The notes beneath the pieces are model-generated. The model ran no database searches, had not been told where the DNA came from, and saw only the letters and a list, made by a program, of their open reading frames with translations. Position numbers and translations under genes: made by a program. From Ktedonobacterales bacterium (GTDB lineage Bacteria > Chloroflexota > Ktedonobacteria > Ktedonobacterales > JADMIN01): a DNA stretch of 36,125 bases. Positions 5,096 to 22,256 of this stretch are shown in pieces; within the stretch, counting starts at the first letter, position 1, and each line of letters starts with the position of its first letter. The stretch spans positions 1 through 36,125 of the forward strand of contig JAICVS010000030.1 of NCBI GenBank assembly GCA_025935195.1, written 5' to 3'.

Positions 5096-5116
5096 CCCCC
5101 GGCTCAAGCACGGGGG
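5096..5116 (-). other. Candidate TnpB element right-end hairpin / possible omegaRNA 3' part
   Basis: Minus strand CCCCCG-TGCTTGAGC-CGGGGG, 6-bp stem with the tnpB TGA stop codon inside the loop. Confidence 0.5.
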
Positions 5117-6411
5117 CTTGTGTCTGGACTCCACCGCAACTCCGTGTAGCGTCGCCGCCGCACGGCTTTGGCTTCAGCGTCCGACACATCAGGGCGTTCC
5201 GACAAGACGCCCGTTCTCACCCAGTCCTGCCGGGCGAGAAGCGTTCTGAGCGCGACGTTGCGCGCGCCTACCAAGTCCGCGTGGATGACTAGACGGCACG
5301 CCTGACAGCTGAATAGCAATCCTTTGCTGGGCCGGTTATCCGCTGCGGTGTACCCACAGCGTGGGCATGCTTGACTGGTCTTGTAGGCGTCCACCTTCAC
5401 GGTCATGCTGCCAGCAAGCAGTGCTTTGTAGGCCACATAGCCCTGCAGCTCGGCGAAGGCCCACTGCGAGGTGTGCCGATTCGCACGGCGCTGCTTCTCC
5501 GTGGCCTTCTGACGGTGCCCGCGGTTAGTCCGCTCACGGATGTGGGTCAGGTCTTCCAGGCCAATGAGGCTGTGCGGATAGGCGTCCACGATCTGCCGGC
5601 TGATGACGTGGTTGCGATCTTGCTTCAACCGTCTCTCTCTCCCGGCGATCACGATGAGTCGTCGTGTGGCCGAGCGAGTGCCTTTCTGCTGCAATCGCTT
5701 CCGCAGCCGGGCGTAGTGGTCTGCCTGGGCACGGGCCTCTTTGCCAGGAAAGAACCGTGTACGGTTTTGTGTGTCCGTGGCGGCGGCCAGATACCGCTGG
5801 CCCACGTCCACGCCGACGAGACGTTGATGCGCCTCAGGACTCGGGTCCGCGACCGCAATCTCCAGACTCACCAGCAGGTAGAACTGCTGGCGCGGCTTGT
5901 CATACCAGAGCTTGGCGGCGCCGATGCGCGCCCCCTGCTGGATGAGGGACACGTGCCGGGCATAGCCGCTATAGGGCAGAATCACCCGCCCATCCAAGGT
6001 CAGGAGGCTCACCCGCCGGTCCGTCTTGAAGCTGTAGTCCTTGCCAAACTGGTAGGTCAATGTAGGCGAGATGAAGCGCGGCACGGTATCCAGGCCTCGG
6101 TAGTGCTTCTTCGTCTTGCCCGCCGCCCGCGCCGCCACATTGGTCTTCACCTTGGTCCACAGCGTCTTGTAGGTCGCGCCGACCTGACGTGGCACTGAGC
6201 AGGCCATCTGCGCGGGCAACCCAAAGCGTGTGCGGATGGCCGCGTAGGTGCCGTCCTGCAAGTCTACCGCATGGCTCATCTTGCCGTGTGCGAAGGCATA
6301 GCCACTCACGTAGTTCAGCGCGTCGCGGTAGGTCAGTTGGGTCTGGCGCAGCGCGCGGAACTGCGCAGGAGTCGTATGCAGCTTGAGCTTGGCGGTGATG
6401 ATCTGCTTCAT
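5104..6411 (-). CDS. tnpB: IS200/IS605-family TnpB RNA-guided nuclease (OrfB), apparently full length
   Basis: RuvC-I GVDVGQRYLAAATD, RuvC-II LIGLEDL, zinc finger CPRCG-x-CQAC, RuvC-III HADLVGARNVA. Confidence 0.93.
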   Translation of the reverse strand: MKQIITAKLKLHTTPAQFRALRQTQLTYRDALNYVSGYAFAHGKMSHAVDLQDGTYAAIRTRFGLPAQMACSVPRQVGATYKTLWTKVKTNVAARAAGKTKKHYRGLDTVPRFISPTLTYQFGKDYSFKTDRRVSLLTLDGRVILPYSGYARHVSLIQQGARIGAAKLWYDKPRQQFYLLVSLEIAVADPSPEAHQRLVGVDVGQRYLAAATDTQNRTRFFPGKEARAQADHYARLRKRLQQKGTRSATRRLIVIAGRERRLKQDRNHVISRQIVDAYPHSLIGLEDLTHIRERTNRGHRQKATEKQRRANRHTSQWAFAELQGYVAYKALLAGSMTVKVDAYKTSQACPRCGYTAADNRPSKGLLFSCQACRLVIHADLVGARNVALRTLLARQDWVRTGVLSERPDVSDAEAKAVRRRRYTELRWSPDTSPRA

Positions 6412-11527: not shown

Positions 11528-11601
11528 TGGGCGATGAGGAGCTCGAATCCCCGACCTCCACGATGTCAACGTGGCGCTCTAACCAACTGAGCTAATCGCC
11601 C
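11528..11601 (-). tRNA. tRNA-Val (anticodon GAC)
   Basis: Cloverleaf GGGCGAT TA GCTC AGTTGGTTA GAGC G CCACG TTGACAT CGTGG AGGTC GGGGA TTCGAGC TCCTC ATCGCCC A; CCA not encoded. Confidence 0.95.
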
Positions 11602-11781: not shown

Positions 11782-13635
11782 CTAATTGTCGTCGGCTTCG
11801 CCGGCGGCGATACGGGTGATGAAGGTGCCGAAGTTGGCGAAGAAGCCGCGGGTGCCGCCACAGGTGAAGTCGGCGGCGTACTGGGCGTCGGTGCAGGACT
11901 GGCCGATGTATTCCTGCGCCAGCCAGATGTTGCCGCTCTCGTCGGCCACGGCGGCGGAGTAGTCACCCCAGCGCGGGCGGTCGAAGAGGTAGGCGGAGAA
12001 GCCGTCCTCAGGGCCAACACCGGCGCCGGAGATGTGAACCTTGCGGTTGCCCTTGTCGAGGCGCACGAACGCCGCGCTGGGGAAGAAGTCCGGTCCGACC
12101 AGCGAGAAGGTCATGACGGCGGTGCCGTCCGGCGTTACGCCGATGGATGGGTAGGTGGTGTTCTGGCCGGCGACGGTGACGTAGCCCTGATCGGTGACGC
12201 GAGCGGCCAGGTGGCCGTGATCGGTCTTCGGCTCGACGACGAAGTAGGCGATGCCGGCGCGATTGCCGCTGACGACGGTATCCACAGCGGACCAGAGCTT
12301 GCCATCGGCGAAGACGACCTGGTTCATGCGGTCGTCGTTGCTATCCAGCGGGGCTTCGGGCGCACCGACGAGATCGCCCAGGGGGATTGGGCCGGCCTTC
12401 TGGGTGGAGGGCGGCGCGAGGCCGTAGGTCTCGGTGGTGATGACCTGATGATCCAGGCTGACCGATGGCGAGGCGCTATCGAGCGATGCCGTGTTGGTCA
12501 GCGCCCAGACGGTGATGCGGTTGTCGAGCGAGTTGAAGAAGTCGAGGCTGCTGAGGAAATACTCGGTGCCGCCGTTGGCGCGCTCGAAGGCGCCGCTGGG
12601 AGGGGTCTCGGCGGGCTGGATGGAGAACCAGATGCCGCCGGCATCGGGCGTGGGGATGACGCCCGCGTTGATCTGGACGACGGACGAGAGGGCGCCGGCG
12701 ACGAGAGCGCGCTTGGAGATGGCGTAGACCTGGGCGCCGTTGAAGCCGTTGTTGAAGATCGGGAACTCGTTGGTGGTGACGTAGAAGCCGTTGGCGTCGG
12801 CGCCGATCAGCGGCTGGTCGCCGAGGCAGGGGCAGCCGGGATGGCCGGGCAGGGAACCGTCGCCGTCGGTGGTGTCGAAGCTGAAGATGTTGAAGGCGCC
12901 GGTCGGGTCGCCGGTCTGGCTGACGGCGATGAAGGTGCTGCTGTGGCCGGGTGTGGCGAAATTGCCGGTGGGCGCGTCAATGTCGATCTCGAGCACAGTG
13001 AAGAACCAGCGGCCGGTCGCGGCGTCGAAGTAGCACTTCGGGTCGCTCAGGAAGGGGCCGAACGGCGCGCCGCCATTGGTGGAGGCGGGGGCGACGTTGA
13101 GGAACTGGTTGAGCGGGGTAGGGCCGCTAAGCTGCGCGCCGGTGCGCGCGTTGTAGACGGCGTTGGCGAGGTTGATCGTCTCGAAGACGAAGCCGTTGCC
13201 GACGCACATGCCCTGGTCGGGCGGCTCGAGGTCGAACTGCGAGTTGGCGTAGATGCCGGTGCCGGCGTTCGCCTGCTGGAAGTCCGTCAACCCCTGGAAG
13301 CCGGTGGCGCCGCGAGTGTTATTGGCGAGCTCGTTGGGCTTGGGGTTGGGGACGGTGAGGGTGGTGATGTGGCCGGCGGTACTGCCGCTGCTCGCGTCGT
13401 CCTTCTCAAAGGGCTGGCGGAAGCGGTGCTTGACGGCTGGGCCGCTGAGGGCGGCGCTGGCGGCGCCGAGCCTGCCGGTGCCGTGGGAGGTGAGACGCGA
13501 GGTGGTGAGTTGCGGGGCAGCGGCGCGCGCCGTGCCCTGGTGGCCGATGACGAGCGTCGCCGCGAGGGTCGAGAGCAGGGCGAGGGCGGTGACGCCGCCG
13601 ATGGCGATACGCTTGACCGTGAGGAATTGACGCAT
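11782..13635 (-). CDS. Secreted paralog family protein, copy 1 (unknown function, probable extracellular beta-propeller)
   Basis: MRQFLTVKRIAIGGVTALALLSTLAATLVIGHQGTARAA signal peptide; EPPDQGMCVGNGFV, SDPKCYFD, CPCLGDQPLIGADANGFYVTTNEFP, GGTEYFLSSLDFF, DDRMNQVVFADGKL, RWGDYSAAVADESGNIWLAQEYIGQSC. Confidence 0.85.
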   Translation of the reverse strand: MRQFLTVKRIAIGGVTALALLSTLAATLVIGHQGTARAAAPQLTTSRLTSHGTGRLGAASAALSGPAVKHRFRQPFEKDDASSGSTAGHITTLTVPNPKPNELANNTRGATGFQGLTDFQQANAGTGIYANSQFDLEPPDQGMCVGNGFVFETINLANAVYNARTGAQLSGPTPLNQFLNVAPASTNGGAPFGPFLSDPKCYFDAATGRWFFTVLEIDIDAPTGNFATPGHSSTFIAVSQTGDPTGAFNIFSFDTTDGDGSLPGHPGCPCLGDQPLIGADANGFYVTTNEFPIFNNGFNGAQVYAISKRALVAGALSSVVQINAGVIPTPDAGGIWFSIQPAETPPSGAFERANGGTEYFLSSLDFFNSLDNRITVWALTNTASLDSASPSVSLDHQVITTETYGLAPPSTQKAGPIPLGDLVGAPEAPLDSNDDRMNQVVFADGKLWSAVDTVVSGNRAGIAYFVVEPKTDHGHLAARVTDQGYVTVAGQNTTYPSIGVTPDGTAVMTFSLVGPDFFPSAAFVRLDKGNRKVHISGAGVGPEDGFSAYLFDRPRWGDYSAAVADESGNIWLAQEYIGQSCTDAQYAADFTCGGTRGFFANFGTFITRIAAGEADDN

Positions 13636-13853
13636 GGAACCTTCTCTCTCGAATGAGCAACTCGGCCCCAGCATCAAGGGTCAGCGAGTTGCGCGTGGAG
13701 TTTGATGCGGAGTATGCGAGATTCCGGGGTATGCGCCGAGATGTACTGGGAAGCGCGAAAAGGCGCCGTGGGTGAGTGCGTGCGCTGTGCCGTTGTAGTG
13801 AGGATACGCGGGCGGATGTGCCGCACGCGACGACGCGATGCCCTCCTTTCCCC
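13636..13853 (-). promoter_or_regulatory. Candidate structured 5' leader of copy 1
   Basis: GGGGAAAGGAGGGC (13841-13853 region), hairpin GCAACTCG...GGGGCCGAGTTGC (13657-13692), then CGAGAGAGAAGGTTCCATGCGTC. Confidence 0.5.
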
Positions 13854-13957
13854 ATGACCACACGTCCGCGATCGTTCGACAGCGCATTCGTCCACAGCGT
13901 GCGCGGGCGACGAGAAGCCGCACACGAACCTTGCCGTCCGCGTCATAGTGCGACCAT

Positions 13958-13986
13958 ATTTTAGCGCCTTGCTTTGCATCGCGCAA
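13958..13986 (-). promoter_or_regulatory. Sigma70-like promoter for copy 1, about 315 nt upstream of ATG
   Basis: Minus strand TTGCGC-17 nt-TAAAAT. Confidence 0.5.
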
Positions 13987-14255
13987 GAGCGGGTGGGCAG
14001 CGAGTGGGGGGATGGGGGGTGTCGCTGTGTGTTGAGCCGTTGTCGTTCGCTGGCCTCCCGGCATGATGCGTTTTGACGAATGAACGCGGATAGACCATCC
14101 GCGACGGCCAACCGGCCAGCCGGCGATGGCAATCGCGCCTGGAGGGCGTGCCGCCGCGACGTCCGCCGTCGCGGACTGGAGCAGCGGCGTATTCCAAGGC
14201 CAAGAAGCAAATGACATCGGCACGGTGGCTGTGGGAACCGTGGCGCCGGGTTCCG

Positions 14256-14271
14256 CGTCTTGTACAAGACG
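14256..14271. promoter_or_regulatory. 16-bp perfect palindrome CGTCTTGTACAAGACG, possible operator
   Basis: Exact dyad immediately upstream of the GGAGG RBS of the 14288 lipoprotein gene. Confidence 0.4.
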
Positions 14272-14287
14272 AAGGAGGGACGGCCGC

Positions 14288-14875
14288 ATGCGACGACAAC
14301 GAAATCGAATGGCTCACTTGGGATGGGTGATCGCGGGGGTGTGTGGGCTGCTGGTGGGATGCGGCGTGAGCGGGCAGGGCGGCGGCGCGGCGGGCGGCAC
14401 GGCGCCTGCCGCCGATGCGACGGTGGTGGTCAATGGCACGCCGATCCCGTCACAGCGCCTGCCAACGCCGTCATCCACCGTGACGCCGGGCGGGGGGAGA
14501 GCGACGGCCACCGCCACGCCGGGAGCGGTGCGGCTGATGCTCGACAAGGCGGCCTATGCGCCCAGCGATCCGGTGTTGGTCACGATCGAGAATGGGCTGA
14601 ACATGAAGATCGTGGTCAGCGATCACCATACGGGCTGCACATCCGTGCAACTGGAGAAGCTGGCGCAGGGTTCGTGGCAGTCCGCCGGAGGCGTTTGTAA
14701 GCTGCTGACGCCGGTGCGGCTGATCACGCTGGCGCCGGGCAGCGTGACGCCGCAGCGGATCGGCATCCCAGCCGGCGCGAGCGCGGCGGGGACGTATCGG
14801 GTGAAGCTGGTGTATGGCGCGGGCGGCGCCAGCCAGGATGGGGTGGCGCTGTCCGCGACGTTCACCGTTGGGTGA
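14288..14875 (+). CDS. Hypothetical lipoprotein with Ig-like/BsuPI-like domain
   Basis: MRRQRNRMAHLGWVIAGVCGLLVGCG lipobox; VRLMLDKAAYAPSDPVLVTIENG...GTYRVKLVYG beta-sandwich pattern; RBS GGAGGG. Confidence 0.75.
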   Translation: MRRQRNRMAHLGWVIAGVCGLLVGCGVSGQGGGAAGGTAPAADATVVVNGTPIPSQRLPTPSSTVTPGGGRATATATPGAVRLMLDKAAYAPSDPVLVTIENGLNMKIVVSDHHTGCTSVQLEKLAQGSWQSAGGVCKLLTPVRLITLAPGSVTPQRIGIPAGASAAGTYRVKLVYGAGGASQDGVALSATFTVG

Positions 14876-15101
14876 GGAGGTGTGCCTATACAAGAAAAGA
14901 CAGAAGAAGGGCCGGACCTCCATGAGAGGAAGCCCGGCCGGTGTGGCGGAGAAAGAGGGCGCGGTCGGCATAGTCGAGTGTTCGGGGTCGCGCCGACTTC
15001 CTCCTCATGTCCTCATGTCACGCTGAACTGGCGGAGGTGTGGGCGTGTGTGTCAGACACGCTCACACCTGCCGAGACGATGCGCGTAGGGGCGAGAGGAC
15101 G

Positions 15102-16868
15102 CTAGTGGGCGCCCGCTACGTCCCAGACGCGAGTGCCCCAGTTGTCGATCGGATCCTGATCTTTGGCCGGCGGGATGTACTCCGCGGCGCCCCAGATGTT
15201 GATGCCGTTGGGGTCGAGCACGGAGAAGGAGTAGTCACCCCAGCGCACGCGGTTGACGAGCGGCCCGGCGAAGCTGACATGGGGGCCTGCGCCAACGCCG
15301 GTTATCTGGATGCTGCCGAAGGACTTGCCGCCAGCCTTCCGGACGACGAAGGCGGTGGACGGGTTGAGCGTCGGGCTGGTCAGCGAGAAGGTGATCACCG
15401 AGGTGCCGCTCAACGTGTGAATGAGCGCGGGATAGAGCAGGTACTTGCCGGCGGCGGCGATATAGCCCTGGTCGGTGACTTTGTGGGCCGCCGGGTTGAT
15501 CTCGAACCAGGCGATGCCGTCGCGTGCGGAGGGATCGGTGCCGATGGTGATGGCGGTGTCGAGCTCGGTGAAGAGTCGCGGACCGCTCTTATCCGCGAGG
15601 AACTGCACCTGCTGCATACGGCTGTCGCCGGCATCCAGGAACGGCTCCGACTCGACCAGAATGCCGGCGGGGCAGTTGATCGCGACGAGGAACGGCACGC
15701 AGGTGAGGGCGCCGGTGCCGGTGCTGGCGGCGGGCATCGGGAAGGCGTAGGTCTCGCTGGTGATGATACGCCCGCTCAATGTGACGGTGCCGCCGGTGGT
15801 CAGGTGGCGATCGCCGGTGACCTGCCACAGGCCAAGCGTGTTGGCGATCGAGTTGCTGTTGCCGAATGCGTCGAAGGGGAACGAATTGACGAGGTACTCG
15901 GTGTTGGTGCCGTCGCCGAAGGCCGGCTCAAGCGTGAGGATGGGGACGCCACCCAGCGAGACGGGGCCGAACGCGAGCGCATGCACGCTCAAGTCCTGGC
16001 TGACGAGCTGTGGCTTCGAGATGGCGACGACGAGGGCGCCCTCGAAGTTGTCCTCATTCGGGCCGCAGAACTGGTCGGTGGTGACGTAGACGGCGTTGTT
16101 GTCGAAGCCGGTGTGCGGCTGGTCGCCGAAGCAGGTGCCGCCTTGCGACGTGTCGAACTGATAGGTCGTCTGGCCGTGGCTGTTGATCACGGAGACGTCG
16201 TCAACGGTGTGCCCCAGGCTGTTGGAGCTGATGATGGTCAGGAAGAACGTCTGTGTCGTGGGATCGAACAGGCAGCGCGGGTCGCTGAAGGCGCCCGGAT
16301 CCTGGAAAAGCGTCGCGACGGAGATGGGGGCTGTCAACGGCGTGCCGCCGGTGGTGAAGAATCGGCCGGCGTCGTTGACGATCTCGAGCACGACCTTCTG
16401 ACCGCCGAATAGGGAGGAGACGGAGCCGACGCAGAGCGCCTGGTCGGGCGGCGTGACCTCCGCGCCCTCGCCACCGTTGGCGTTGGCCTGATCGAGATCG
16501 CTCAGGCCGTTGAAGTTCGCGAGCTGCTGCCCCTGGGCGGTGCGGGCGATGGCCGCGCCGGCGGTGTGGGGGAGCGCGCCGCGGGCGACCGTGGCGCGTG
16601 CGCGGGCCGCGTCGCCGCCGGGGGAGTGATCCTTGAAGGCCAGCGGGCCGTTCTTGGCGTTGTGGACGGTGGAGGTGATGTGCTTGCCGGGGACTTTCGA
16701 GCTGGTTGCCACTCTGGTGGCGCTCAGCGGATGGCCGTTATAGCTGGCGGTGACGGTTCGTGTGGCGGCGTGCGCCGCCGGCACGGCCACTGCCACGAGC
16801 GCGCCGACGAGCGCCAGCGCGCCGATGATCGCGAATCCAATGCTGGATCGCCGAGGAAAGTGCATCAT
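15102..16868 (-). CDS. Secreted paralog family protein, copy 2 (divergent member)
   Basis: Signal peptide MHFPRRSSIGFAIIGALALVGALVAVAVPAAHA; TPPDQALCVGSVSS, SDPRCLFDPTTQTFFLTI, CFGDQPHTGFDNNAVYVTTDQF, TEYLVNSFPFD, DSRMQQVQFLADK, RVRWGDYSFSVLDPNGINIWGAAEYIP. Confidence 0.82.
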   Translation of the reverse strand: MMHFPRRSSIGFAIIGALALVGALVAVAVPAAHAATRTVTASYNGHPLSATRVATSSKVPGKHITSTVHNAKNGPLAFKDHSPGGDAARARATVARGALPHTAGAAIARTAQGQQLANFNGLSDLDQANANGGEGAEVTPPDQALCVGSVSSLFGGQKVVLEIVNDAGRFFTTGGTPLTAPISVATLFQDPGAFSDPRCLFDPTTQTFFLTIISSNSLGHTVDDVSVINSHGQTTYQFDTSQGGTCFGDQPHTGFDNNAVYVTTDQFCGPNEDNFEGALVVAISKPQLVSQDLSVHALAFGPVSLGGVPILTLEPAFGDGTNTEYLVNSFPFDAFGNSNSIANTLGLWQVTGDRHLTTGGTVTLSGRIITSETYAFPMPAASTGTGALTCVPFLVAINCPAGILVESEPFLDAGDSRMQQVQFLADKSGPRLFTELDTAITIGTDPSARDGIAWFEINPAAHKVTDQGYIAAAGKYLLYPALIHTLSGTSVITFSLTSPTLNPSTAFVVRKAGGKSFGSIQITGVGAGPHVSFAGPLVNRVRWGDYSFSVLDPNGINIWGAAEYIPPAKDQDPIDNWGTRVWDVAGAH

Positions 16869-17061
16869 CCAAGCCACTCCTCATAACACTCGCGTATCCC
16901 TTGTGCCTCCCGCGCGCTCGCGAGGCGACTGGCCTCTTGTAAGCGATCACGCGGGCCCCAAATCGGCCGTATCCCGCCGGCGGCAGTGTCGAGGCGCTCC
17001 CCGCGCCGCCTCTATGACGGGAAACGATGGATGATCCAATGCGGATGCGATTGGCGCGATG

Positions 17062-17124
17062 TCATCCTGGGTGGCGTCGCCGCCGATCGTGCGCGTCATC
17101 GTGCGCGAAATCGTACTGACGCAT
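17062..17124 (-). other. 20-codon orphan ORF (MRQYDFAHDDAHDRRRRHPG) with the paralog family's RBS/start block; uORF or remnant of a fifth paralog
   Basis: CGAGAGAGAAGGTTCCATGCGTC identical to copies 1 and 3; hairpin CGCCCGG/CCGGGCG upstream; stop after 20 codons. Confidence 0.5.
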
Positions 17125-17477
17125 GGAACCTTCTCTCTCGCTGGCGTGCGCCCGGCCCCCGCGTGTTCCGGGCGTTCGAGATGGCGCGGCGCGAATGCCG
17201 CGTGAGGGTTGCCAGATAGCGCGTCGGAGTCCGACTGTTCTCTTGCTGCTCTCTCCTGGTCGGGCCGCCTCCTTTCCACCCAAACACAGCCGCGAGCCGG
17301 CGCTCGCGTCTCCCCCCCATGCTATGGCGAGCGGCGGGCGCATCGAGGCGCGGAGATGATTCCAGCAAGTATGGGGCCGAACCAAGGGACGAATGGGCAC
17401 GAATTTGCGGTACGTTCGCCAGACGGAGAGGCAGGTGGAGAGGGGGAGGCGCGTCCGTGCCGTCCTTGCCGATGGAA

Positions 17478-17529
17478 CGACACGAAGCCCGGCGGCTCCC
17501 ATGTGGGAACCAAACCGGGCTTCGTGTCG
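17478..17529. terminator. Long hairpin downstream of copy 3
   Basis: 15-bp perfect inverted repeat CGACACGAAGCCCGG / CCGGGCTTCGTGTCG with a second nested dyad (GGCTCCCA TG TGGGAACC); no U tract. Confidence 0.55.
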
Positions 17530-17560
17530 AATATCGCAGGGATTGGATCGGGATGGTGGA

Positions 17561-17586
17561 GCGGGCGCTCCCGGGAGAGCGCCCGC
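17561..17586 (-). terminator. Hairpin just after copy 3 stop codon
   Basis: GCGGGCGCTC ... GAGCGCCCGC, 10-bp perfect stem. Confidence 0.5.
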
Positions 17587-17613
17587 CCGGTCAGTTAGGA
17601 GGCGAGGGGTGAG

Positions 17614-19497
17614 CTAGTCGCCATCGTCAACGTTCGGGTTGACGCTGGTGATGAACGTGCCCCAGTTGGCGAGCTGGCTGCGGGTGTTGCCGCAGGTGAA
17701 GTTGGTGGCCTCGAAGGTGGCGAGGTCGCAGCTCTGGTTGATGGACTCGGCTGCCAGCCAGATGTTGCCGCTCTCGTCCGCCACGGCGGCGGAGTAGTCG
17801 CCCCAGCGCGGGCGGCCGCCGAATGCCTGGGGGTATTCCTCGAAGCCGTCCTGCGGGCCGACGCCGGCGCCGGAGACGTGGACCTTGCTGGCGTGGCCGC
17901 CACCGTTGATGGTGACGTAGGCCGCGCTGGGGAAGAAGTCCGGCCCGACCAGCGAGAAGGACATCACGGCGTTGCCGTCCGGGTTGACGCCGATGGAGGG
18001 GTAGACAACGCTGTTGCCGTCAACGGAGACGTAGCCCTGTTTGTCGGTCTTGGCCGTGAGGGTGCCGTGATCCATCTCGGGCTGGACGATGAAGTAGGCG
18101 ATGCCGGCGCGCTTGCCGTCGCCGATGGTCGTGTTGACGCCGGAGAACAGCTTGCCGTCGGCGAAGACGACCTGATTCATGCGGTCATCGTTGGCGTTGA
18201 TCGGGCCCTCAGGCAGGCCCAGCAGGTCGCCGAGCGGAGTGCTGCCGGCCTTCTGTGGGACGAGGCCCGGCTGGCCGTAGGTCTCGCTGCCGATGATCAC
18301 GTGCTGCAGGCCGAGGGTCGGCGTGCTGCTGTTGAGCGAGGAGGTGTTGGTCAGCGCCCAGGCGGCGAGCCGGTTGTCCAGCGTGCCGAAGAAGTCGAGG
18401 CTGGCCAGCAGGTACTCGGTGCCGCCGTTGGCCGTCTCGAAGCGGCCGCCCGGAGGCGTGATGGCGGGCTGGAGCGAGCCCCAGATGCCGCCGGCGTCGG
18501 GCGTGGTGATGGTCTGGCCGACGTTGATCGTGGCGACGGCGTTGGTGATGTCGGCGCCGGCCGTCGCGTTCACCAGCGCGGACTTCGACATCGCGTAGAG
18601 CTGCGTGCCGTTGAAGCCGTCCTGGAAGAAGGGGAACTCGTTGGTAGAGATGTAGACGCCGTTGGCGTCGGCGCCGAGCAGCGGCTGGTCGCCGAGGCAG
18701 GGGCAGCCGGGGTGGCCGGGCACCGTGCCGTCGCCATTGGTGGTGTCAATGCTGAAGATGTTGAAGGCGCCGGTCGGGTCGCTGGTCTGGCTAACGCCGA
18801 TGAGCACGCGCGTGTTGCCGGTGAATGCGCCGGACACCGGATCCTGGTCGAGGATGAGGGTGGTGGCGAAGAAGCGGTGCGTCTGCGCGTCGTAGAGGCA
18901 CTTCGGGTCGGTGGCCTCGGAGCCGAAGACCAGCGGATTGCTGCGCGTGATGGCCGGGGCCAGGCCGAAGAACGAGTTGAGCGCGGTCGGCACGCCGATG
19001 CGCGCGTGCGTCTTGGCATTGTAGATGCCCACGACATCGTTGACGGCGTCAATGACGAAGCCGTTGCCGACGCACATGCCCTGGTCCGGCGGCTCCAGGC
19101 TGAACTGGTTGTTGCCCAGGTTGCTGCCGAAGCGGTTGTCGAAGTGGTTGACGCCGGCGAAGCCGGTGGCGCCGGGGTTGTTGTTGGCGACGCCGTTGCC
19201 GCGCGGGTTGGGCGCGGTGGTCGGGGCGCCGGCCGGGGACTTGCCCTGCAGGCCGGTGTCGTCTTTGTCGAACTGCGGGGCGATCTCAGGCCCGTTGACG
19301 CCGGAGGCGCCAGTGACCGAGGAGGCGATGCCGCCGGTGCCGGCGGCCTTGAGGTGCGTGAAGGAGACCTGCAAGCCGGTCGCGGCGCGCGCGGGCGCGC
19401 CATGGCCGATAAAGAGGGTGGCCGCGATGGTGGCGACGGCCGCGAGACTGGTGAGACCAAGCAGCGCGACGCGCTTCTTGTTGCTCAGAAGACGCAT
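17614..19497 (-). CDS. Secreted paralog family protein, copy 3
   Basis: Signal MRLLSNKKRVALLGLTSLAAVATIAATLFIGHGAPARA; EPPDQGMCVGNGFV, TDPKCLYD, CPCLGDQPLLGADANGVYISTNEFP, GGTEYLLASLDFFGTLDNR, DDRMNQVVFADGKL, RWGDYSAAVADESGNIWLAAESINQSC. Confidence 0.85.
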   Translation of the reverse strand: MRLLSNKKRVALLGLTSLAAVATIAATLFIGHGAPARAATGLQVSFTHLKAAGTGGIASSVTGASGVNGPEIAPQFDKDDTGLQGKSPAGAPTTAPNPRGNGVANNNPGATGFAGVNHFDNRFGSNLGNNQFSLEPPDQGMCVGNGFVIDAVNDVVGIYNAKTHARIGVPTALNSFFGLAPAITRSNPLVFGSEATDPKCLYDAQTHRFFATTLILDQDPVSGAFTGNTRVLIGVSQTSDPTGAFNIFSIDTTNGDGTVPGHPGCPCLGDQPLLGADANGVYISTNEFPFFQDGFNGTQLYAMSKSALVNATAGADITNAVATINVGQTITTPDAGGIWGSLQPAITPPGGRFETANGGTEYLLASLDFFGTLDNRLAAWALTNTSSLNSSTPTLGLQHVIIGSETYGQPGLVPQKAGSTPLGDLLGLPEGPINANDDRMNQVVFADGKLFSGVNTTIGDGKRAGIAYFIVQPEMDHGTLTAKTDKQGYVSVDGNSVVYPSIGVNPDGNAVMSFSLVGPDFFPSAAYVTINGGGHASKVHVSGAGVGPQDGFEEYPQAFGGRPRWGDYSAAVADESGNIWLAAESINQSCDLATFEATNFTCGNTRSQLANWGTFITSVNPNVDDGD

Positions 19498-19654
19498 GGA
19501 ACCTTCTCTCTCGTAGAAGCGACCCGGCCCCATGCCCGGGTCGTCGAGGGGATCGCGGTGCGCCGTCGCACCGCGTGTGCTCGTGTCGTGAGGGATTGCG
19601 TGATGATGCGTCGAAGATGCGCCAGTAGCGAGGGGTATTCGTCTCCTTTCCTCC
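19498..19654 (-). promoter_or_regulatory. Candidate structured 5' leader of copy 3
   Basis: GGAGGAAAGGAGAC (19641-19654), hairpin CGACCCGG (19536-19543) / CCGGGTCG (19520-19527), then CGAGAGAGAAGGTTCCATGCGTC. Confidence 0.5.
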
Positions 19655-19813: not shown

Positions 19814-19842
19814 AGGATACCTGCAAGGCGGCGACGCGTCAA
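19814..19842 (-). promoter_or_regulatory. Sigma70-like promoter for copy 3, about 310 nt upstream of ATG
   Basis: Minus strand TTGACG-17 nt-TATCCT. Confidence 0.5.
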
Positions 19843-20051: not shown

Positions 20052-20080
20052 TTGCCAACGCGATGTAAGAGCGTTACAAT
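20052..20080 (+). promoter_or_regulatory. Sigma70-like promoter for copy 4, about 310 nt upstream of ATG
   Basis: TTGCCA-17 nt-TACAAT. Confidence 0.5.
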
Positions 20081-20393
20081 GCAGCCTGCTCTGCAAGCGG
20101 CGCAACGGCGTGCCGCCGATGATCAGCGATGATGGAAGGAGCATGCCAAGACGCAATGGCGGCGCCGGATTGGGAGCGCATCTGCGTGGGCGTATGGCGG
20201 TATTCACGTTGCGCGGAATACCTGCCCACATCTCTGACGACGGCGCCTGAAGACTGAAAAAGAGCAAAGCTGTTTGGGTGGAGCTTTGGCGGCGGCAGGC
20301 GGAGATGCCCCTCCTGGCGCTGTGGCTTATGTCGAGAGAGCGGCTCGTGTGGGGAGATGGGCCGGCTATGTCCATAAAACGAGAAGGTAGTTC

Positions 20394-22256
20394 ATGCATC
20401 ATCCGAGACGATCTGTGCTGTTGGCTGCTAGCGGCATCGCGCTCGTCGCGCTTGTCACCGGCACCCTGTTCGCGTTCCATGTCACTGGCACGCGCGCGGC
20501 GGCCGGCGCGAACGGCACCCTGACCACGGTCGCTTTCAAGGGCGCCGCCTCGTTGAAGGCGACAGGCGCCGCCGCCACGAAGGGCGGCGACACCAGCCAG
20601 GAGATCAGCCCCGCCGGTGATGTCGGCGAGGAGATTCCGCACTCTTCCACTATCGTCCACGTGGATGCCTCGCACGTTCCGTCGCCGGCCGGAAGCGCCA
20701 TCGCGGCGAGCAATGCGGGCTTCCGCGGCTTCGCCGGCCTCAACCATCTCGATCAGCGGCTGGCGGGAACGGGCGCGTTCGCCGGCACGCAGTTCAGCCT
20801 GGAGCCGCCGGATCAGGCGCTCTGCGCTGGCAACGGCTTCGTCTTCGAGAGCATCAACACGGCCATCCGTGTCTTCCGTACGGATGGCAGCGCGGCGACG
20901 GCGCCGATCGCGATTAACCAGTTCCTGGGGCTGGCGCCGGAAATCATCCGCGGCGCGAACCCAGTCTTTGGGGATTTCACCAGCGACCCGAAGTGCTACT
21001 TCGATGCCACCACGCAGCGCTGGTTCTTCACGATTCTGCAGGCCGATGTCGTGCCCGCGACCGGCGATTTCAGCGGCCGGACGCACGTCTACATCGCCGT
21101 CAGCCAGTCGAGCGATCCGACGGGGGCGTACAACCTCTTCGTGCTGGATACGACCAATGACGGCCTGAATGGCACGCCGAAGCACGCGAGCTGCCCGTGC
21201 CTGGGCGATCAGCCGCTGATCGGCGCCGACGCCAACGGCTTCTACGTCACCACCAACGAGTTCCCGCTGTTTAGCAATGGCTTCAACGGCGCCCAGGTCT
21301 ACGCGGTCTCGAAGGCCGCGCTCGTGGCTGGCAAGACACCCCCGGCGGTGACAATCAACGCGGGCGCGCTGCCCACGCCGGACGCCGGCGGCATCTGGTA
21401 CTCGATTCAGCCGGCGACGGTGCCGGCCGGCGGCGCCTTCAACACGGCGAACGGCGGCACCGAATACTTCCTGAGCGCACTGGATTTCGCGGGCAAGCTG
21501 GACAATCGCATCGCCGTCTGGGCGCTGACCAACACGGCGTCGCTTGGCGGCAAGGCGCCCGCCGTCAGCCTGACCAACGCGGTGATCGCCAGCGAGGTCT
21601 ACGGCCAGGGTCCGGCGCAGATTCAGAAGAACGGGCCGACGCCCTTCGGCGACTCGGTCCACAGCCCTGAGGCGCTGCTGGACGGCAACGATGACCGCAT
21701 GAACCAGGTGGTCTTCGCGGGTGGCAAGCTCTGGTCGGCGGTGGATACCGTGGTGCAGACGCCGAACGGGCCGACGCGCGCGGGCGTGGCCTATTTCGTC
21801 GTGTCGCCGTCGGTGACGAGCGGCCAGGTCGGCGGCGCGATGACGGGCCAGGGCTACGTGGCGGTCAACCAGCAGAACACGAGCTACCCATCAATCGGTG
21901 TGAACGCGGCCGGCAAGGCGCTCATCACGTTTACGCTGACGGGGCCGGGCTTCTTCCCCAGCGCCGCCTACGCGACGATTGACGCGGCCGGCAACACGGG
22001 CGATGTGCATATCGCCGCGGCTGGCGCGGGGCCGGAGGACGGCTTCACGGGCTATAAGTCGCCGGGCTTCGGCGGCACCAGCCGCTGGGGCGACTACTCG
22101 GCGGCGGTGGCGGATGCCGACGGCTCGATCTGGCTGGCGCAGGAGTACATCGGCCAGAGCTGCGGCGATGCGCAGTTCAACGCCGACTCGACCTGTGGCG
22201 GCACGCGCACGCTGTTCGCCAACTGGGGCACGTTCATCAGCAACGTCCAGCCATAA
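20394..22256 (+). CDS. Secreted paralog family protein, copy 4
   Basis: Signal MHHPRRSVLLAASGIALVALVTGTLFAFHVTGTRAA; EPPDQALCAGNGFVFESINTA, SDPKCYFD, CPCLGDQPLIGADANGFYVTTNEFP, GGTEYFLSALDF, DDRMNQVVFAGGKL, RWGDYSAAVADADGSIWLAQEYIGQSC. Confidence 0.85.
   Translation: MHHPRRSVLLAASGIALVALVTGTLFAFHVTGTRAAAGANGTLTTVAFKGAASLKATGAAATKGGDTSQEISPAGDVGEEIPHSSTIVHVDASHVPSPAGSAIAASNAGFRGFAGLNHLDQRLAGTGAFAGTQFSLEPPDQALCAGNGFVFESINTAIRVFRTDGSAATAPIAINQFLGLAPEIIRGANPVFGDFTSDPKCYFDATTQRWFFTILQADVVPATGDFSGRTHVYIAVSQSSDPTGAYNLFVLDTTNDGLNGTPKHASCPCLGDQPLIGADANGFYVTTNEFPLFSNGFNGAQVYAVSKAALVAGKTPPAVTINAGALPTPDAGGIWYSIQPATVPAGGAFNTANGGTEYFLSALDFAGKLDNRIAVWALTNTASLGGKAPAVSLTNAVIASEVYGQGPAQIQKNGPTPFGDSVHSPEALLDGNDDRMNQVVFAGGKLWSAVDTVVQTPNGPTRAGVAYFVVSPSVTSGQVGGAMTGQGYVAVNQQNTSYPSIGVNAAGKALITFTLTGPGFFPSAAYATIDAAGNTGDVHIAAAGAGPEDGFTGYKSPGFGGTSRWGDYSAAVADADGSIWLAQEYIGQSCGDAQFNADSTCGGTRTLFANWGTFISNVQP

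Follow-up and report, generated by a model that had tools for sequence, protein, structure and literature searches.

Putative mRNA-stabilising leaders with a startless Shine-Dalgarno sequence upstream of clustered paralogs in a Ktedonobacterales bacterium

Results

Consensus Shine-Dalgarno sequences without a start codon

The stretch of DNA analysed here, hereafter called the window, is the entire 36-kb contig JAICVS010000030.1 (C78; 36,125 nucleotides (nt)) of an incomplete 4.7-Mb genome bin from a soil bacterium of the order Ktedonobacterales, phylum Chloroflexota. It carries four clustered paralogous genes, A to D. The 5' leaders of about 300 nt that precede genes A and C, together with an orphan leader (leader 2), are best read as mRNA-stabilising elements in which a hairpin insulates the ribosome-binding site, a reading to which we assign a probability of roughly 45%. 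The better supported half of these leaders is a Shine-Dalgarno (SD) sequence without a start codon, which points to mRNA stability. A first-pass annotation had described three loci with an identical start block, a hairpin and an upstream motif GGAAAGGAGR. It overlooked that this motif is a consensus SD sequence devoid of a start codon.

The motif is present at all three copies as GGAAAGGAG, 93-150 nt beyond the hairpin, just as had been reported. GGAAAGGAGR includes GAAAGGAG(G) and lies 143-206 nt before the ATG in copies 1-3. On the minus strand, the element reads GAAAGGAGG in leader 1 (13842..13850, 206 nt before the ATG) and in leader 2 (17268..17276, upstream of copy 2), and GAAAGGAG in leader 3 (19643..19650, 145 nt before the ATG). 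In a survey of SD sequences, GAAAGGAGG is the consensus for the class Ktedonobacteria (PMC10783764). The 16S rRNA end TGGATCACCTCCTTTCT was recovered at eight sites in seven relatives, while that of the window genome itself was not found in the incomplete bin. Judged by the 16S ends of the relatives, copies 1-3 each possess an SD-like sequence in the 5' untranslated region (UTR) that is complementary to the 3' end of 16S rRNA. None of 13 elements inspected is followed by ATG, GTG or TTG at a distance of 4-13 nt, and the only GTGs fall within the motif or follow it by 2 nt; as far as the sequence tells, the element would not direct translation initiation. RNase J, the 5'-3' exonuclease relevant to such elements in Bacillus, is encoded in the window genome (G000), where TIGR00649 matches with 642 bits on contig C204, and the same model scores above its cut-off in 12 of 12 relatives.

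Enrichment was assessed in 39 leaders that precede members of this gene family within the order, over the region from -300 to -45. The four window leaders were excluded, and none of the leaders in this set took part in defining the motif. Matches of at least 8 nt occurred in six of the 39 leaders (0.56 in dinucleotide shuffles, none in antisense) and matches of at least 10 nt in four (0.04 in shuffles), the longest of which comprised 13 nt (AGAAAGGAGGTGA in leader L160). A control set of 397 leaders, drawn from six related genomes and preceding other genes, contained ten with a match of at least 8 nt (11 in antisense) and one with a match of at least 10 nt (none in antisense), resulting in Fisher P values of 0.0014 and 0.0003, respectively, for the family versus these controls. 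The 549 other leaders of the window genome yielded 16 sense versus 15 antisense matches. Beyond the order, 3 of 62 leaders had a match, a weak excess (P 0.07), and all three stem from Chloroflexota records. Note that two of the six element-bearing leaders belong to one genome, and that another of the six, L161, precedes a distant paralog in the window genome whose start is uncertain, the element being at -292.

Conserved start blocks and hairpins

The identical minus-strand sequences noted earlier at 13635, 17124 and 19497 proved to be three exact copies of a 23-nt block, CGAGAGAGAAGGTTCCATGCGTC, which occurs nowhere else in the genome. This block consists of the ribosome site, the start codon and the first bases of the gene. 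In block 1 (13629..13651, -), the SD sequence GAGAAGG is followed by a spacer and ATG 13635 of gene A, and block 3 (19491..19513, -) contains ATG 19497 of gene C. Copies 1 and 3 head genes, whereas ATG 17124 of block 2 (17118..17140, -) opens an open reading frame (ORF) of only 20 codons (MRQYDFAHDDAHDRRRRHPG*), and gene B does not start until 16868. When up to three mismatches are allowed, the 16-mer GAGAGAAGGTTCCATG is found three times in the window versus 0.21 expected occurrences; with up to one mismatch it is confined to those three sites in the whole 4.7-Mb genome. A genome-wide search for the pattern GGGGCCG...GAGAAGG returned the three copies and two chance matches, which is below the reversed control. 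Leaders 1-3 share conserved islands, between which the sequence is too diverged to be aligned by MAFFT over whole leaders, and that alignment was unusable for covariation.

Hairpins that differ in sequence but retain pairing precede all three blocks, again in agreement with the first-pass annotation. Hairpin 1 (13657..13692, -) pairs GCAACTCG with CGAGTTGC over 8 bp, a flanking G-C pair being added to the core CAACTCG/CGAGTTG, and ends 21 nt before the ATG. Hairpin 2 (17149..17174, -) is formed by CGCCCGG/CCGGGCG (7 bp), and hairpin 3 (19520..19543, -) by CGACCCGG/CCGGGTCG (8 bp), ending about 21 nt before the ATG. All three stems therefore have 7-8 bp and end 21-24 nt before the start codon, and the sequence GGGGCCG on the side of the 3' arm is indeed constant in the three copies. 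Copies 1 and 3 differ by two compensated pairs, with both partners replaced (U-A/C-G and A-U/G-C); relative to copy 3, copy 2 is missing both partners of one A-U pair. Leader 3 contains a second, longer hairpin upstream of hairpin 3 (19554-19575, -; CGCGGTGCG/CGCACCGCG, 9 bp), and none of this kind was seen in leaders 1 and 2.

The proposed covariation held up in part. A pair count over the three sequences gave two double changes and 86% paired cells, compared with 14-53% in slid controls. The power of this count is low, because 57 of 500 shuffles attain the double changes and only three sequences are available. When the 3' arm was kept fixed, a shuffled upstream stretch of 40 nt paired equally well with P values of 0.009, 0.066 and 0.042 for copies 1-3 (combined P 0.0017) and 0.21 for copy 4. 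Support for stem covariation from three copies is moderate. The length of the stems by itself is nothing unusual, being equalled in 6-17% of the 111 other leaders compared from the genome, and the minimum free energy of the leaders is average.

Across the family, stems of at least 6 bp ending 14-27 nt before the start are present in 15 of 43 leaders versus 60 of 397 controls (P 0.002). An overwhelming enrichment of hairpins throughout the family, as initially indicated by a z value of 5.9 against shuffles, did not survive the comparison with real controls, 15% of which carry such stems, and the counting of related copies only once. The hairpins of the relatives share a position and no sequence, and there is hence no conserved core across homologous leaders. 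A fifth paralog in the window genome (L008 1065 on contig C196, -) possesses a perfect 10-bp stem, GCAGGCATCA/TGATGCCTGC, which ends 19 nt before the start and shows no sequence relationship to the stems of the window. Three paralogs in another genome (L030, L153 and L154 in G012) have in common a CCATTG/CAATGG hairpin with differing loops, located 21-23 nt before the start, i.e., at the position of the window hairpins.

Leader 2, the fourth copy and predicted promoters

The 20-codon ORF of leader 2 (17062-17124, -) is rich in D, H and R and lacks a signal peptide. The start of gene B lies 256 nt beyond the ATG of leader 2 and has its own ribosome site, and the 256 bp that follow start block 2, compared with the paralogs in case copy 2 were a decayed duplicate of a gene start, gave no significant match. 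Leader 2 may be what is left of a gene that has disappeared, or else an atypical leader or leader peptide ahead of gene B.

Copy 4, in front of gene D (start region 20379..20397, +; ACGAGAAGGTAGTTCATGC), had been described as a weaker version, and this is the case: it retains only a weak, bulged AGCGGC/GCCGgCT stem upstream and lacks GAAAGGAG and hence the startless SD sequence. Leaders 2 and 4 have TGTTTGGGTGGA in common (17275-17286, -, and 20271-20282, +), and the leader L012 carries the similar sequence AAGTTGGGTGGAGGAAG about 200 nt before the start.

Promoter-like sites, identified as consensus matches only, precede gene C (19814..19842, -; TTGACG-17-TATCCT) and gene D (20052..20080, +; TTGCCA-17-TACAAT) and lead to predicted leaders of about 310 nt. 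In copy 3 this site is situated about 165 nt upstream of the startless SD sequence, which would place the element inside the predicted leader.

The gene family and its surroundings

Genes A (11782..13635, -; ATG 13635), C (17614..19497, -; ATG 19497) and D (20394..22256, +; start 20394) encode secreted proteins with 51-59% mutual identity (59% between A and C), and gene B (15102..16868, -), a further paralog, lies downstream of leader 2, begins at 16868 and is preceded by a ribosome site of its own, TGAGGAGTGG. In addition to the fifth close paralog on C196, more distant ones reside on contigs C74 and C210 of the same genome. The family proteins have signal peptides, and sequence searches of Pfam, NCBIfam and PDB with them returned no match. 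A predicted model (predicted local distance difference test score 83) consists almost entirely of beta strands, and the top matches in a fold search were propeller-type proteins with template modelling scores of only about 0.3. This suggests only a propeller-like fold, predicted for the product of gene A as beta-propeller-like; we do not claim a function.

A tRNA gene matched by Rfam lies downstream of gene A (11528-11601, -). Between genes A and B, the opposite strand carries a gene for a lipoprotein-like protein of 195 residues (14288-14875, +; MRRQRNRMAHLGWVIAGVCGLLVGCGVSG...), and lipoprotein ends of similar appearance adjoin the family gene at L015 and L019. A perfect 16-bp palindrome with the look of an operator (CGTCTTGTACAAGACG, 14256-14271) immediately precedes the ribosome site of the lipoprotein-like gene. 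An ORF of 435 residues (5104-6411, -; MKQIITAKLKLHTTPAQFRALRQTQLTYRDALNYVSGYAF...) resembles, by eye, a TnpB-type transposon protein.

Discussion

In the mechanism that we favour, a 30S subunit would dock on the startless consensus SD sequence GAAAGGAG(G) and block 5'-to-3' decay by RNase J in the manner of the stabilising Shine-Dalgarno (STAB-SD) elements of Bacillus. The hairpin would then fold on its own, shield the SD sequence and the start codon from upstream sequence and might act as a second barrier. The hairpin step is the weaker of the two. According to reviews, a STAB-SD is an SD-like sequence in the 5' UTR that does not initiate translation; it can bind 16S rRNA and stands in the way of RNase J1 (PMC4113751, PMC3997798). 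Elements of this type are present in further leaders too (PMC4113751), and a strong SD sequence without an initiation codon stabilises mRNAs where RNase E is absent (PMC3997798). In a Bacillus case, a stem too near the SD sequence lowered stability (PMC7509114), which bears on the hairpin step.

The closest known counterparts are the STAB-SD of Bacillus thuringiensis cry3A (cryIIIA) and related 5' stabilisers of Bacillus, which resemble the leaders studied here in that a consensus SD sequence of the GAAAGGAGG type occurs in a long 5' UTR, separated from the start codon by more than 100 nt. The stable cry3A transcript begins at -129, its SD sequence is without a start codon, as here, and RNase J is present in our organism. 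The element of the predicted leaders is internal, as is that of the long cry3A transcript. Unlike in Bacillus, the host belongs to the Chloroflexota, and the predicted leader has, in addition, a hairpin ahead of the genuine ribosome site. By its sequence features and the presence of RNase J, the element is a candidate member of the STAB-SD class, with putative roles in 30S binding and in mRNA half-life. The leader of Escherichia coli ompA is similar in that a stem-loop is located in the 5' UTR of a gene for a secreted or surface protein. Stabiliser stems of the ompA type sit at the 5' end of the transcript, while the stems described here stand 21-24 nt before the start codon, a long way from where the transcript is predicted to begin. 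The cis-regulatory families of Rfam, such as riboswitches and RNA thermometers, likewise combine a stem beside the ribosome site with the possibility that this site pairs in an alternative way. They differ in that our leaders have no conserved aptamer core in the relatives and keep the SD sequence outside the main hairpin; it is located 3' of the hairpin in all copies, which does not fit an RNA thermometer. Rfam searches at gathering and relaxed thresholds returned only the tRNA and a chance microRNA match, no cis-regulatory family and no covariance-model match for the leaders.

Several observations weigh against a stabilising leader. The predicted accessibility of the startless SD sequence does not exceed that of flank-shuffled sequence, about 80% of the family leaders, including copy 4, are without the element, and the reversed motif is also more frequent than by chance (4 of 43 leaders), so that part of the signal may come from general purine-richness. 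The family-wide stem excess becomes borderline, at 10 of 38 leaders (P 0.06), when the window copies are omitted and the paralogs of one genome are counted once. Start codons and transcript ends, moreover, are predictions.

In principle, the shared features could also be ordinary ribosome sites inherited by duplication, the hairpins and the purine motif being leftovers or products of chance. We regard this as doubtful, though it is the strongest of the alternatives: the paralogs adjoin each other, four-fold sites of A and C are identical at a fraction of 0.70 versus 0.56 at saturation, which indicates residual common ancestry, stem length and folding energy are unexceptional, and the copies number only three. 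However, the sequence between the islands can no longer be aligned and yet the stems are re-paired, and the startless SD sequence is overrepresented in family leaders from other genomes. A two-state translational switch, in which GGGGCC from the 3' side of the hairpin pairs with GGUUCC of the start block, so that the start is free when the hairpin is closed and covered when it is open, appears somewhat less probable still. The alternative helix would comprise 14 bp in copy 1 (UUGAUGC-UGGGGCC/GGUUCCA(U)GCGUCAA), 10 bp in copy 3 (GCAUGGGGCC/GGUUCCAUGC) and 10 pairs in copy 2 (ACGC(G)GGGGCC/GGUUCC(AU)GCGU). In all three, loop bases extend it over the start codon, in differing registers, and only in this helix would the GG bases of the SD sequence and the start codon be paired. 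Such a switch would explain why UUCC, a spacer that is usually free, is constant along with GGGGCC. In folds of 95 nt, copy 1 favours the alternative helix (0.92) and copy 3 the hairpin (0.91), and loop shuffles pair as strongly with P values of 0.010, 0.15 and 0.069 for copies 1, 2 and 3 (combined 0.005). These values are optimistic because the pairing was noticed post hoc. Copy 2, moreover, practically never forms the alternative helix, copy 4 gives a P value of 0.32, accessibility of the start codon is the same as in other genes, and neither a ligand or trigger nor a core common to the relatives is apparent. Improbable, in our judgement, is a composite leader in which the startless SD sequence recruits 30S subunits far upstream while the start-proximal RNA toggles between the hairpin and GGGGCC:GGUUCC, such that protection and translation are set separately; we found no report of such a leader in the Chloroflexota literature.

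The two remaining explanations are both very unlikely. The upstream GAAAGGAGG could serve the translation of a leader peptide or short upstream ORF that controls the gene by attenuation or coupling. It is a perfect class-consensus SD sequence, and leader 2 does have a 20-codon ORF, although at the downstream start block; what speaks against this is that all 13 elements lack a start codon at a suitable distance and that no T/U tract, as required of an intrinsic terminator, follows the hairpins in copies 1-3. Inverted repeats near gene starts can be operators, and the hairpins could accordingly be DNA palindromes bound by a transcription factor. Here, the repeats differ in sequence between copies and are conserved in symmetry, whereas a sequence-specific operator would need the opposite, and the repeat of gene C follows the promoter-like site at a distance of about 270 nt.

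The broader claim of the first-pass annotation, that of a selected cis-regulatory RNA, needs to be divided. We consider the leader to be under selection because islands are conserved amid divergence, stems are re-paired with compensatory changes and the family shows a stem excess, the last being subject to the reduction given above. A specific, sequence-recognising RNA is unsupported, since relatives share no hairpin sequence and Rfam contains no match, and three copies do not prove one.

The stabilising leader that we favour has no published precedent in the phylum as far as the literature covered here, itself incomplete, reveals: we found no report of a STAB-SD in Chloroflexota and no paper joining the Shine-Dalgarno sequence, RNase J and Chloroflexi. 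STAB-SD elements have so far been described for Bacillus and a few other Gram-positive genes. The leader hairpin would represent a case of a stem that keeps its position and its pairing rather than its sequence. If the reading is correct, ribosome-mediated protection of mRNA would extend to the Chloroflexota, with a testable prediction regarding RNase J.

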